From Blastocatellia bacterium (GTDB taxonomy: Bacteria; Acidobacteriota; Blastocatellia; UBA7656; JADIYM01), in contig JAJTWZ010000044.1 in the NCBI GenBank assembly GCA_021463145.1, forward strand, positions 1 through 36,089: 36,089 nt of DNA, written 5' to 3'. Of this stretch, positions 20,285-30,170 are shown one piece after another (the stretch's first letter is position 1; each line of letters begins with the position of its first letter). Position numbers and translations under genes: made by a program. The notes under the pieces are model-generated. The model made no database searches, was not told where the DNA came from, and saw only the letters and a list, made by a program, of their open reading frames with translations.

Positions 20285-22207
20285 GTGCTCGCACAGGACG
20301 CAGTCCTCCACGACCGATACAGAATCGCCGGCTTTTCCGGTCTTACACGCACGGCGCGATCGTACGACGCGATCGACGGGCGATTCGGCACGCGCGTCGT
20401 CGTACGCGAATGCGAACGGTCGAAGCCGCGACCGTTTCGCGAGGCTTTCGTTCGCGAAGCCCGGATACTCAATGGCTGCCAGCACGTTGCACTTCCCGTC
20501 GTCACCGACGCATTTGCGGCCGGCGACGCCTTCTATCTCGTCGAGAGGAAGATCCCATCCGAGTCGGTAGCGAACCTTCTCGAGCGCGATCGGAAGCCTT
20601 TCGCGCCCGTTCTGGTCCTGTCGTGGCTCGACGCCATACTGGACCTGCTCGAGTATCTTCACTCCCTGCCGGCTCCGATCATCGTGGCGAACATCTCGCC
20701 GGCCTCGATCGAGATCTCGTCGAGAGGCAGCGTTTTCCTGACCGATTTCAGCGTGGCGATCGAGGGACCGGGAAAGACTCTTGCGTGGACTTACCCCTAC
20801 GCACCGATCGAGCAGATGGAAGGGCAGGACGTGGACGTTCGTGCCGATGTGCACGCGCTGGCTGCGTCGGCGTACGAAATGTTGCTCGGCGTGCGGCCGC
20901 TCAGCCCGCACGAACGCGAACAGACGAAGGGTGGCGTGGCCTTCGATCCGCTCGAGCATTTTGCGCGGGTCGTGTCGCGTCCGCTTGCGGCCGTGCTGGA
21001 CAGGGCGATGTCATTACGTCCCGAAAGTCGCCAGCCGACCGCCACCGAGCTACGCCTCGAGCTGGTAACGGCGGGAACGACAACGGTGCCGGTGGCAAAG
21101 CTGCCATCGTCGGTGGATGCGCCACCGCAGTCTCCCATCGCGTCGGACGCGGCGTTCGGATCGTTTGCTCATCAGCCAACCGCGCCGGTCGAGTCGCTTG
21201 TCCCTGCTTCGGGAAAGACAACGATCATCTGCCGCACATGCGGGAGCACGAACGAGGCGACTCGGGTGTTCTGTCCGCATTGCGGGTCGCTGCTCAGGTC
21301 GGACCGCCGTCCCGGTACGCTCGACGTCGCTGCGCTGCTTCCCGATTTCGTTCCGCTTCACGAGCTTTCGCCGACGGCGCCCGTCGTAAGGCCGGCAGCG
21401 CCAGATACCGTCGTGGACCGGCTGCAGGAGACGTTCTCGGCCGATCTCGTCTCGCCGCCGGTGGTCCAGCCCGTCCAGCATTCGCCCGAGCCAGCGCGTC
21501 CTGTTTCGCCGTTTGCCGGCCGGGCGGAAGTCCGCAGAGGTTCCGACCCACTTCGCACGGCCGAAGGCGGTCCGAATTCGGGCGATCCGACGATGCCCCT
21601 CGCTCGGCTGCTTGTACTCGAGGGCGAAGAGCCTGGAAGGATGCTTCTCATCCGGGCAAAGGTCACGACGCTCGGGCGGTCGGCCGGCGATTACATTTTT
21701 CGCCAGGACGCCTTCATGTCGGGTCGCCATGCGAAGGTGAAGTACGTCGACGATTGCTACCGCCTGGACGACGCGGGCAGCCGGAACGGGACTTTCATGC
21801 GGATCAGGAAAGAAGCGCGGCTCGCCGAGAATGACATCGTGCTGGCCGGGCAGCAGCTGCTTCGTTTCGAACACGATGCGGTATCGCGGGAACCGCAGCT
21901 CCGTCTCCAACTCAACAACGGAGACGCGGCCGCGACATACGATCTTGCCCGCGCGGTTACAGCAATCGGACGAACGCAGGGCGAGATCCGGTTCGCCGAC
22001 GACGCTGCGATGGCGGACATGCACGCCAGGATCGAACGCCGCGGCGACGATTGCTTCGTCGTCGACGGCGGTAGCCGCAATGGAACATTTCTGAGACTTA
22101 CTACCGACCGGCCGCTTTCGGACGGCGACGTGTTCATCATCGGGCGGCACATATTCAAGTTCGAAGCGGACGTCAGCCTGGACGACCAGATTACCGAAGA
22201 CCTTTAA
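20285..22207 (+). CDS. Pseudokinase, zinc-ribbon, double-FHA signalling protein
   Basis: A 640-residue soluble protein. Residues about 10-260 have the fold pattern of a Ser/Thr protein kinase (FVREARIL with E58, YAPIEQ for the APE region, ADVHALAASAYEML), but the catalytic residues are gone: R41 replaces the VAIK lysine, the HRD-K-N loop reads VANISPAS (N136 for the aspartate), and DFG is DFS. A zinc ribbon follows (C316, C319, C330, C333). FHA domain 1 (about 440-528) keeps GR, SGRH and NGT and should bind phosphothreonine. FHA domain 2 (about 541-625) keeps GR and NGT but has ADMH in place of SxRH. There is no membrane helix. GTG start with GGAGG 6 nt upstream. Likely a scaffold reading phosphorylation made elsewhere. 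Confidence 0.88.
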   Translation: MLAQDAVLHDRYRIAGFSGLTRTARSYDAIDGRFGTRVVVRECERSKPRPFREAFVREARILNGCQHVALPVVTDAFAAGDAFYLVERKIPSESVANLLERDRKPFAPVLVLSWLDAILDLLEYLHSLPAPIIVANISPASIEISSRGSVFLTDFSVAIEGPGKTLAWTYPYAPIEQMEGQDVDVRADVHALAASAYEMLLGVRPLSPHEREQTKGGVAFDPLEHFARVVSRPLAAVLDRAMSLRPESRQPTATELRLELVTAGTTTVPVAKLPSSVDAPPQSPIASDAAFGSFAHQPTAPVESLVPASGKTTIICRTCGSTNEATRVFCPHCGSLLRSDRRPGTLDVAALLPDFVPLHELSPTAPVVRPAAPDTVVDRLQETFSADLVSPPVVQPVQHSPEPARPVSPFAGRAEVRRGSDPLRTAEGGPNSGDPTMPLARLLVLEGEEPGRMLLIRAKVTTLGRSAGDYIFRQDAFMSGRHAKVKYVDDCYRLDDAGSRNGTFMRIRKEARLAENDIVLAGQQLLRFEHDAVSREPQLRLQLNNGDAAATYDLARAVTAIGRTQGEIRFADDAAMADMHARIERRGDDCFVVDGGSRNGTFLRLTTDRPLSDGDVFIIGRHIFKFEADVSLDDQITEDL

Positions 22208-22228: not shown

Positions 22229-23107
22229 ATGAGGCAGAGTGGGTTGATTTTACTGGCGGCGATGGTGCTGCCGGTCACTGCGGCCCCGGCGCAGGTTGGC
22301 GACGCCCAGCGAGCCATTCACGGTATCGATTTCCGCAACTTCGTATACTCGCCCGCCTGTGTCGAACAGGGAATGACGGTCACCGCGCGGGACGGCGTAT
22401 TCGAGAGCCAGGACCAGGACGAGCGGATCTACTTCGAAGTCCGGAAAGTCAGCTACGGCGACTTGAACGGTGACGGAGTCGACGAAGCCGTCGTCGAGAC
22501 GAACTGCAACACCGGCGGGACGGGACAGTTCTCCGACGGCACGGTTTTCGTGTTTCGTGGCAACAGAGCGGTGCCGGTCGCATCGCTGGGCATTGGCGAC
22601 CGCGCCGACGGCGGTATCCACGCCTTGCGAATCGAGAATGGCCTGCTGGTAGCGGAACGTTACGGGCAGGAGCACAGTGGGGCGTGCTGTCCCGAGTACG
22701 TAGAGACCAGTAAGTGGCGTCTGGCCGGCACGAGGTTGACGAGCGCAGGCCGGCCGGTCCGGAAGGTCTTTCTTTCCGCTTCTCGGAGCGACGACGCAGG
22801 ACCTGTTCGCGTTCGGTTTCTGAAGGGCACCTCTTCAGCCGTGCTTTCCGGCTCTACGAATGGCGGAGAGCGATACGTGCTGGGGGTGCGAAAGGACCAG
22901 ACGATCGAACTTCGGTTCTCGACGGACGACACGGGCGCGTCTGCCGAGATCGTGTTGCCGAGTGGAACGAGGCTGAAGGCGGTCCGGCCCGGAGAAACCT
23001 GGACGGGCCGGATTCCACAGGGCGGCGACGTCACGATTGCGATCGAATCGCCGGCGAGTTCGGACTCGGCCGTGGCGTTCTTCGATCTGGACCTGACGGT
23101 CCGGTGA
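22229..23107 (+). CDS. Secreted protein, unknown function
   Basis: A 292-residue protein with a Sec signal peptide of about 21 residues (MRQSGLILLAAMVLPVTAAP). The segment YGDLNGDGVDEAVVETNC resembles an FG-GAP/EF-like calcium-binding loop, followed by a conserved-looking CNTGGTGQF stretch and a CC pair (GACCPEY). The last 90 residues read as a separate beta-sandwich (VRFLKGTSSAVLSGST and ending FFDLDLTVR), similar in feel to pre-peptidase C-terminal-like domains. It should be periplasmic or extracellular. GGTGGAG lies upstream of the ATG, 21 nt after the FHA gene's stop, so it is very probably in the same operon. Family not recognised. Confidence 0.75.
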   Translation: MRQSGLILLAAMVLPVTAAPAQVGDAQRAIHGIDFRNFVYSPACVEQGMTVTARDGVFESQDQDERIYFEVRKVSYGDLNGDGVDEAVVETNCNTGGTGQFSDGTVFVFRGNRAVPVASLGIGDRADGGIHALRIENGLLVAERYGQEHSGACCPEYVETSKWRLAGTRLTSAGRPVRKVFLSASRSDDAGPVRVRFLKGTSSAVLSGSTNGGERYVLGVRKDQTIELRFSTDDTGASAEIVLPSGTRLKAVRPGETWTGRIPQGGDVTIAIESPASSDSAVAFFDLDLTVR

Positions 23108-23138: not shown

Positions 23139-23660
23139 GTGATGGGGATGATCGCGGCAGCCGGATGGAGGCTCGTTACCTGCGCGGTCTGGCCGTGGCT
23201 TGCTGTCACGCGCCAGCACTTGAAGATCACGACGCTCGTCGTGATCGGTTTCGTATTGCTGGCCTTCGGTACCTTCGTGGCCCTCAGGCTGATCGGGCGT
23301 CTGCGCCGCTCTGCGGAGAAACTCGACGAACCGGTCGAGCTCGAGCCGGTGGACGCGCATCCCCCGGTGCGTCGTGTCGTGGATTCCGGAATCGCGAACC
23401 TCCTGGAGCAGGCCGCTCCGATCGACGGTGACGAACGATCCGACGAGGAGTTGTTTGCTTCGGTCGTTCGCGTGACCGTCGAGGTCGGCGGGGTGTCGAT
23501 TCCCGCGCTTCAACGCCGCCTGCATCTCGACTTCGCGCGCGCATCCGCTTTCGTTGAACGGATGGTGGAGGAAGAGATGCTCCTGGACGGGGCGCCTGGC
23601 GGGAAATTGAAGCTTACGGAGAAAGCGCAGGAGTATCTCGACCGTCTGGCCCGGACGTGA
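23139..23660 (+). CDS. Membrane-anchored winged-helix protein, FtsK-gamma-like
   Basis: A 173-residue protein with a helix at about 30-52 (LKITTLVVIGFVLLAFGTFV), an acidic linker, and a C-terminal domain (about 102-165) whose pattern DEELFASVVRVTVEVGGVS-IPALQRRLHLDFARASAFVERM matches the DNA-reading gamma domain of FtsK (normally LQR-RIGYNRAARL-D-ME). FtsK-gamma binds KOPS DNA and XerD, but here the motor and most of FtsK are absent, so the domain stands alone on a membrane tether. Start: GTG 23139 or ATG 23142, with GGAG at 23128-23131. It follows the secreted-protein gene by 31 nt and overlaps in position with upstream sequence of the DUF1287 gene. Confidence 0.75.
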   Translation: MMGMIAAAGWRLVTCAVWPWLAVTRQHLKITTLVVIGFVLLAFGTFVALRLIGRLRRSAEKLDEPVELEPVDAHPPVRRVVDSGIANLLEQAAPIDGDERSDEELFASVVRVTVEVGGVSIPALQRRLHLDFARASAFVERMVEEEMLLDGAPGGKLKLTEKAQEYLDRLART

Positions 23661-29018: not shown

Positions 29019-30170
29019 ATGCACGACAAAGACGATCTGTCCGTGACTCTCGAGGTGCTGATTGGCGACATCACGACGATGGATGCCGACGCGATCGTGA
29101 ATGCAGCGAACCAATCCCTGCTTGGAGGAGGCGGTGTGGACGGCGCGATCCATCGCGCCGCCGGCCCTGATCTGCTTGCGGAATGCCGGACGCTTGGCGG
29201 GTGCGCGACGGGCGATGCGAAGGCGACCGCCGGGTACCGGCTCGGCGCGAGACACGTGATTCACACCGTCGGCCCGGTATGGCGTGGAGGATCGCAGGGA
29301 GAAGCGGAATTGCTCGCATCCTGCTACAGGCGTTGTCTGGAAGTTGCAGCCGGCCTTGGAGTGCGTTCGATTGCATTTCCGGCTATCAGCACGGGAGTAT
29401 TCGGCTATCCGGTGGAAGAGGCCGCTGCCGTTGCGGTCGATGCCGTGTGCGAATACCTCGGGACGCACGAAGGCATCGATCGTGTCGTCTTCGTCTGTTA
29501 CTCCCAGGAGGCCGCCGATGCGTTCGATTCAGCACTCGACGACGGTGCGGATGCTGTCGACGGCGACGGCGACGGCGACGGCGACGGAACCTGGGAGGGT
29601 CTCGGTCCTGTCGAGTGCGCGGCTACGTTCGACCTCTTTCTCGAGGAATCGCTCGGAGCTCCGGCAGACGCGGCGGAAGGGACGACTCCATCGGGACATC
29701 GCGTCGACGTGCTTCGCTTCGACGACCTACCGTTCGAAGGCACGTCGACGTTCGTGACACGGGGAGTCGGCGCCGAAGCGATGCGACGATTCGACGAAGG
29801 CGAGACTCGGCAGGAACTGTTGATGTGTTGCGACGCAACGTTCGACGCTGCCCGCGTGTTGCGCTGGGCCGCCGATCAGGCGCTCGAGTCCGGGTTCGGC
29901 CTGATGCGCGGCGCTGTCCTCTCGATTGACGAGCCGATAGTGCCGGGATCGCGGCTGGTGGCGCTGTACGCCACGTACCCGGTTTACCACGAGGAGCGAC
30001 TGGCGGCGTGGCGTGGCTCTGACCCTCCGACAGCGATCGTGTGGCTGGTGCCGGTAACCTATGCCGAGGCGAAGTTCGTCGAGAAGCGGGGATGGGAGGC
30101 ATTCGAGGAACTTCTCGAGAAGATGGACCCGGATCTGGTCGACTTCGCGCGACACGGTGTCGCCAAATAG
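29019..30170 (+). CDS. Macro domain fused to a suppressor-of-fused-like domain
   Basis: A 383-residue soluble protein. Residues about 5-175 are a MacroD/YmdB-type macro domain: [43 protein letters not shown] and [14 protein letters not shown], including the Asn and Gly-rich loops used for ADP-ribose hydrolysis in that class. A short acidic linker with repeating Asp-Gly (about 181-190) leads to a C-terminal domain (about 195-383) resembling the SUFU family (PF05076): [46 protein letters not shown] and [13 protein letters not shown]. Bacterial SUFU domains are known among polymorphic-toxin immunity proteins. The fusion suggests a role in removing or sensing ADP-ribose on a target; this is inference. 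A PLD-family gene follows by 13 nt. Confidence 0.82.
29559..29588 (+). repeat. In-frame hexanucleotide repeat (GACGGC) in the macro/SUFU linker
   Basis: Four GACGGC units and a fifth GACGGA encode alternating Asp-Gly in the linker between the two domains. Six-base units keep the frame if the number changes, so linker length could vary between strains by slippage. Confidence 0.75.

Follow-up and report, generated by a model that had tools for sequence, protein, structure and literature searches.

A predicted dead kinase fused with a zinc ribbon and a pair of FHA domains in one protein of a Blastocatellia genome

Gene and domain organisation

The window (the whole stretch of DNA that was analysed, 36,089 nucleotides) belongs to a genome of 5.28 Mb in 173 contigs, from the phylum Acidobacteriota. 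An ORF of 640 codons lies at 20285–22207 on its forward strand, the coordinates, frame and strand given in a preliminary description being correct. It starts with GTG at 20285, with GGAGG just 5' of the start, and its codon-position GC of 69/49/74% is as in the adjacent genes. On the basis of its start, ribosome site and codon-position GC, the ORF is a real gene. The following features were identified within it and next to it:

20285–22207, forward strand: gene for a 640-aa protein with the order pseudokinase, zinc ribbon, linker, FHA, FHA
20285–21085, forward strand: pseudokinase domain, residues 1–267 (Pfam Pkinase, E-value 1e-13; AF2; Foldseek)
20339–20365, forward strand: former Gly-rich loop GLTRTARSY, residues 19–27, in which G21, G22, G24 and V26 of the relatives are all changed
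20405–20407, forward strand: R41 replacing the beta-3 VAIK lysine, which is Lys in all aligned relatives
20684–20707, forward strand: former catalytic loop VANISPAS, residues 134–141, replacing HRDIKPxN
20744–20752, forward strand: DFS replacing DFG, residues 154–156, followed by the shortened activation segment
21221–21298, forward strand: zinc ribbon CxxC-x10-CxxC, residues 313–338 (Pfam Zn_Ribbon_1; four Cys)
21299–21595, forward strand: Pro-rich linker, residues 339–437, containing D-T375-V-V-D
21596–21874, forward strand: FHA1, residues 438–530, phosphothreonine-site residues present
21896–22168, forward strand: FHA2, residues 538–628, with Ser changed to A577 and Arg to M579
22229–23107, forward strand: next gene, 21 bp downstream of the pseudokinase gene, 292 aa with a signal-peptide-like start

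The match to Zn_Ribbon_1 (E-value 3e-5, 23.9 bits) falls slightly below the Pfam cut-off of 25 and was accepted together with the four cysteines read from the sequence (C316, C319, C330 and C333). Two FHA matches were found by Pfam (E-value 6e-19). The most hydrophobic 19-residue stretch of the protein averages 1.47 on the Kyte-Doolittle scale, and thus no membrane segment is expected.

Kinase fold and active site

An AF2 model of the kinase domain, built from 37 sequences, showed pLDDT values mostly above 90 and about 84–98 across most of residues 1–265, with drops near residues 160–170 and 211–230. Foldseek comparison of this model with the PDB returned PknB, Stk1 and PknA as well as human kinases including TLK2, with an E-value of 2.8e-16. 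Structure prediction, which the preliminary description had named as a check, gave a confident kinase fold and not another fold. By its predicted bilobal fold and by homology, the N-terminal domain belongs to the protein kinase superfamily.

The active-site residues reported to be lost were all read as described, with R41 in place of the beta-3 Lys, N136 for the HRD Asp, S138 and S141 for the catalytic-loop Lys and Asn, and D154-F155-S156 for DFG, which is not the residue set of an active Ser/Thr kinase. The extent of the loss had been underestimated: the Gly-rich loop is also altered (GxGGMGxV to GLTRTARS), V134 and A135 replace the HRD His and Arg, and the activation segment is about nine residues shorter than in relatives. 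Other kinase landmarks, namely the alpha-C Glu (E58), the APE Glu (E176), the F-helix Asp (D188) and R249, are all present.

The selectivity of this loss was assessed in an alignment with 36 relatives containing 70 columns at least 90% conserved, of which 16 were picked as active-site columns from general kinase knowledge. Twelve of these 16 were changed (G21, G22, G24, V26, A39, K41 to R, H134 to V, R135 to A, D136 to N, K138 to S, N141 to S and G156 to S), leaving G19, E58, D154 and F155, whereas 41 of the 54 other conserved columns were kept (Fisher p = 6e-4). Some of the lost columns outside the active-site set adjoin the site (M23, A25, M87 and G92). The relatives are intact at the same aligned positions as those lost here, so that the catalytic residues have not simply shifted. 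Judged from its residues, the kinase half is catalytically dead, the active site having been selectively lost while the fold was kept.

By alignment, 29 kinases of this genome have the K/D/K/N/D residues intact. Of 139 complete kinase rows, drawn both from this genome and from relatives, 136 were intact, the exceptions being the pseudokinase (counted twice) and L117; these rows were partly gathered with active-kinase patterns, which biases the count towards intact, and some are duplicated. The same-genome sequences L060, L066, L073:2366, L075 and L077 also deviate at K/D/K/N/D, some of them being possibly misaligned. L077 (positions 1362–2270 of contig C91) encodes a 303-aa kinase-like protein that by alignment also lacks the beta-3 Lys and the HRD Asp, and it forms a long branch near the clade of kinase-zinc ribbon-FHA proteins.

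Comparison with known pseudokinases

In a rival reading the domain is a non-canonical enzyme or a nucleotide sensor, with ATP still bound (by R41 with E58/D154 and basic loop residues) for other chemistry or as a structural ligand. This is considered rather improbable. The kept kinase fold with E58 and D154, and R22 and R25 in the loop, would fit with it. SidJ is a pseudokinase with new chemistry, and SelO is reportedly another. The pair of changes Lys to Arg and HRD Asp to Asn, seen here as R41 and N136, also marks the ActPs2 family, where AlphaFold3 places ATP in the predicted structure (PMC12599244). However, the present protein has lost the Gly-rich loop and the catalytic Asp along with both the Lys and the Asn of the catalytic loop, and MviN, in which all motifs are lost, binds neither ATP nor Mg (PMC12599244).

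Bacterial pseudokinases are described in PMC12599244 as largely unexplored experimentally, and the protein was compared with the families defined in that paper. Despite its shared substitutions, ActPs2 differs by a 32-aa insertion before alpha-C and an activation-loop insertion of about 250 aa, found in about 90% of its members, and commonly by a C-terminal membrane segment (PMC12599244); the present protein lacks these features and has one extra residue before alpha-C. Membership is likewise contradicted for the GLW family by VAN at the HRD position, for the DYD family (alpha-C Glu lost, DYD motif) by the kept E58 and by DFS, for the DLHK family (catalytic Asp kept) by N136, and for the CP1 family (linked COG3899 ATPase domain) by the absence of any ATPase domain match in Pfam. 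On sequence features, therefore, five of the seven families appear excluded, with ActPs1 and ActPs3 compared by description. ActPs1 has all three motifs substituted, lacks the G-helix in about 60% of cases and commonly carries a PQQ domain (PMC12599244), which Pfam did not find in the 640-aa protein. ActPs3, the family of MviN, has all motifs degraded and an activation-loop deletion and is mainly actinobacterial and often membrane-bound (PMC12599244); the shortening of about nine residues seen here was set beside this description.

The closest functional parallel is also MviN, a mycobacterial pseudokinase which PknB phosphorylates and to which FhaA binds through its FHA domain (PMC12599244), so that a dead kinase with all catalytic motifs lost and an FHA phosphothreonine reader likewise act together. 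MviN and FhaA are two proteins, membrane-bound and actinobacterial, whereas the present protein is one chain with no membrane segment. EssB/YukC and EssC of type VII secretion likewise bring a pseudokinase scaffold and FHA domains into one system; EssB/YukC differs in belonging to a secretion machine where a separate protein carries the FHA domains, and no EssB/YukC/EssC-type genes were recognised among the window genes scanned. In the open-access PMC text that was compared, the known bacterial pairs (MviN/FhaA, EssB/EssC) act in trans, the pseudokinase and the FHA reader being in different proteins, and here the two are united in a single chain.

FHA domains, relatives and origin

FHA1 retains GR (464–465), S479, R481, H482 and NGT, in agreement with the SGRH and NGT described for it, and by these residues (GR, SxxH with Arg, NGT) it is a predicted phosphothreonine-binding domain. 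FHA2 retains GR (562–563), H580 and NGT, and has A577 and M579 where Ser and Arg would precede the His, also as had been described. A577 is the one Ala at the phosphate-contact Ser position among 71 aligned FHA domains; M579 is weaker evidence because its position varies elsewhere, being Arg in 46 of the 71. FHA2 still matches the FHA family, though without this Ser it is predicted not to bind phosphothreonine in the usual manner. The model of the FHA pair, for which 13 rows were added, just two of them containing two FHA domains, was weaker than that of the kinase (pLDDT 77, pTM 0.52). Its top PDB matches were the FHA domains of GarA and OdhI.

Both FHA domains carry the signature (GRxxGDIxFPHDGYMSxRHARI...SRNGTF...GKQLFRFE) of class-wide standalone zinc ribbon-linker-FHA proteins (L010–L031 and, in the same genome, L054:1222-2523), and they are 41% identical to L030 of the same genome and 47% to L010/L011. 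These standalone proteins also share with the 640-aa protein a zinc ribbon and a long, Pro-rich linker that contains T[VI][VI]; they differ in having one FHA and no kinase domain. The order kinase, zinc ribbon, FHA is also that of a conserved active kinase (L053 and L055 of the same genome; L037–L039, L042, L043, L047 and L051), which is present in every genome of the order. The preliminary description was thus right about a dead kinase being joined to FHA domains, while the domain order itself is not unusual. These active proteins differ in their intact catalytic residues (YRDLKPAN, DFG), in belonging to another kinase clade and in their single FHA of another subfamily. Descent from them was rejected on the FHA subfamily and the tree.

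The kinase half most resembles kinases that carry other C-terminal parts, such as L002 (38% identical), and its closest clade is one of active kinases. In both trees it lies outside the active kinase-zinc ribbon-FHA clade, the exact position of its long branch being unsure. A sister-group placement with L002/L127 seen in one tree was set aside in view of the very long branch and of the careful tree, which gave no clear sister. It is suspected from these comparisons that a lineage-specific fusion took place, accompanied by duplication of the FHA domain and death of the kinase.

Two scans of genome contigs and a search of the 8 genomes of the order, where all candidates were scored, yielded no full-length relative. 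The same was true of 162 genomes of the class (best 7 candidates scored per genome listed) and of a 396-genome sample of the phylum (best 3 candidates per genome), all of these searches giving matches to the kinase half only; a distant or reshuffled ortholog could have escaped these searches. A search of viral contigs with the FHA alignment gave no match. A dead kinase, a zinc ribbon and two FHA domains in one chain were seen in a single genome.

The branch of the pseudokinase is very long (about 6 changes per column, where the median is 0.55), and together with the lack of an ortholog in the class genomes and phylum sample and the erosion of FHA2 this could indicate a decaying gene, in which the kinase half drifts without function and FHA1 alone, or nothing, is in use. 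Such decay is judged distinctly unlikely. The frame stays open over 640 codons, codon-position GC is normal across the whole kinase part and the Shine-Dalgarno site is good. The changes cluster in the active site, positions important for the fold are retained, and the AF2 fold is confident.

The T-[VI]-[VI] motif

The linkers of 22 zinc ribbon-FHA proteins contain 95 copies of T[VI][VI] against 7.0 in shuffles (s.d. 2.7), a count inflated by tandem PPTVVAQP-like repeats and shared ancestry. S[VI][VI] occurs in the same linkers once against 6.6 expected and the reversed V[VI]T six times against 5.1, and [PDE]T[VI][VI] was found in 17 of the 22 proteins compared with a mean of 1.6 in shuffles. 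The tails of 155 kinases (L002, for example) hold 64 copies of T[VI][VI] against 33 expected, subject to the same inflation. The preference for Thr and the occurrence next to FHA domains suggest that T-[VI]-[VI] may be a phosphothreonine motif and a candidate FHA ligand. No report of it was found in the literature (open-access PMC text), and it represents a concrete candidate ligand motif relevant to the whole class.

The 640-aa protein has one copy, T375-V-V-D, between the zinc ribbon and FHA1. Its position raises the possibility of a self-contained switch of the OdhI/GarA type, in which a live kinase would phosphorylate a linker Thr (best T375 in DTVVD) and FHA1 would fold back on it, opening or closing pseudokinase and FHA surfaces with no need of a scaffolded kinase. 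The best PDB matches of the FHA model (GarA and OdhI) and the strong enrichment of the motif in linkers of the related family point in the same direction; nevertheless, most relatives have several motifs instead of one, and similarity of FHA fold is not specific to function. This switch is regarded as a doubtful alternative.

Proposed role and genomic context

We consider, with some reservation, that the gene probably encodes an adaptor, a soluble Ser/Thr pseudokinase with no catalytic activity, which docks by FHA1 on phosphothreonines placed by active kinases. A live kinase, one of the 29 apparently active in the genome, would phosphorylate a Thr, for which T-[VI]-[VI] is the candidate ligand, and FHA1 would bind it. 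The dead kinase domain may then offer a second, protein-binding surface, as a dimer partner of the live kinase or as a substrate decoy, so that the protein would gather, or compete away, members of a phosphothreonine network. FHA2 may be structural, or may bind without phosphate. All steps beyond the intact site of FHA1 are put forward by inference, with MviN/FhaA as the nearest precedent by analogy. The group to which the host belongs has dozens of kinases per genome.

In a wider version of this idea, which is tentative and on balance unlikely, the protein would act as decoy or adaptor in a phosphothreonine code shared across the class: T-[VI]-[VI] in kinase tails and zinc ribbon-FHA linkers would become phosphorylated, this FHA subfamily would read it, and fusion of a dead kinase copy to a duplicated reader would tap or damp the circuit.

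Against the adaptor reading, no partner emerges, the neighbourhood shows no kinase and, with no ortholog at hand, co-occurrence gives no signal. The pseudokinase domain may also still bind ATP, as R41 with the kept E58 and D154, together with R22 and R25, resembles ActPs2. The preliminary description had proposed a scaffold for a kinase encoded elsewhere, which may be so: the genome has 29 kinases with intact catalytic residues, none of them among the window genes scanned, and nothing ties the protein to a particular kinase. The neighbours of the pseudokinase gene encode an MBOAT protein, an SGNH-like protein (by eye) and a secreted protein, and this neighbourhood is not conserved. The gene at 22229–23107 is possibly co-transcribed with the pseudokinase gene and encodes a separate protein, whose homologues in G005 and G002 do not adjoin a pseudokinase; a search of the order's other genomes gave no match to the upstream SGNH-like protein. 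A pathway named by neighbouring genes was rejected on these two observations. PADLOC matches to defence systems (PD-T4-6, mad6 and others) cover the kinase domain only and were not counted as evidence.

Elsewhere in the genome, L054:1222-4095 (contig C89) comprises a standalone zinc ribbon-FHA gene (1222–2523) with a PP2C phosphatase gene 39 bp downstream. On contig C141, L073:2366-8730 encodes on one strand a zinc ribbon-pseudokinase-PP2C protein, a zinc ribbon-FHA protein, an active kinase-zinc ribbon-FHA protein, a zinc ribbon protein whose C-terminal part is hydrophobic (RDD-like by eye) and an FHA-GAF-SpoIIE phosphatase. These two loci link FHA proteins of this kind to Ser/Thr phosphorylation. 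A zinc ribbon-FHA gene is also adjacent to the kinase-zinc ribbon-FHA gene in the order's other 7 genomes.

The zinc ribbon-pseudokinase-PP2C fusion (L073:2366-4171, forward strand; homologues L169–L179) lacks the HRD Asp (HNG, YNG, HNA and similar) and does not keep DFG in 12 aligned copies. It was found in 14 of the 162 genomes of the class, among them every one of the 8 in the order, and is a conserved pseudokinase joined to a phosphatase.

It should also be noted that the window contains, on the forward strand, a small protein at 23139–23660 that has a hydrophobic stretch in its N-terminal part and contains an FtsK-gamma-type domain (Pfam E-value 3e-8), and Macro and SUFU domains within one ORF at 29019–30170.
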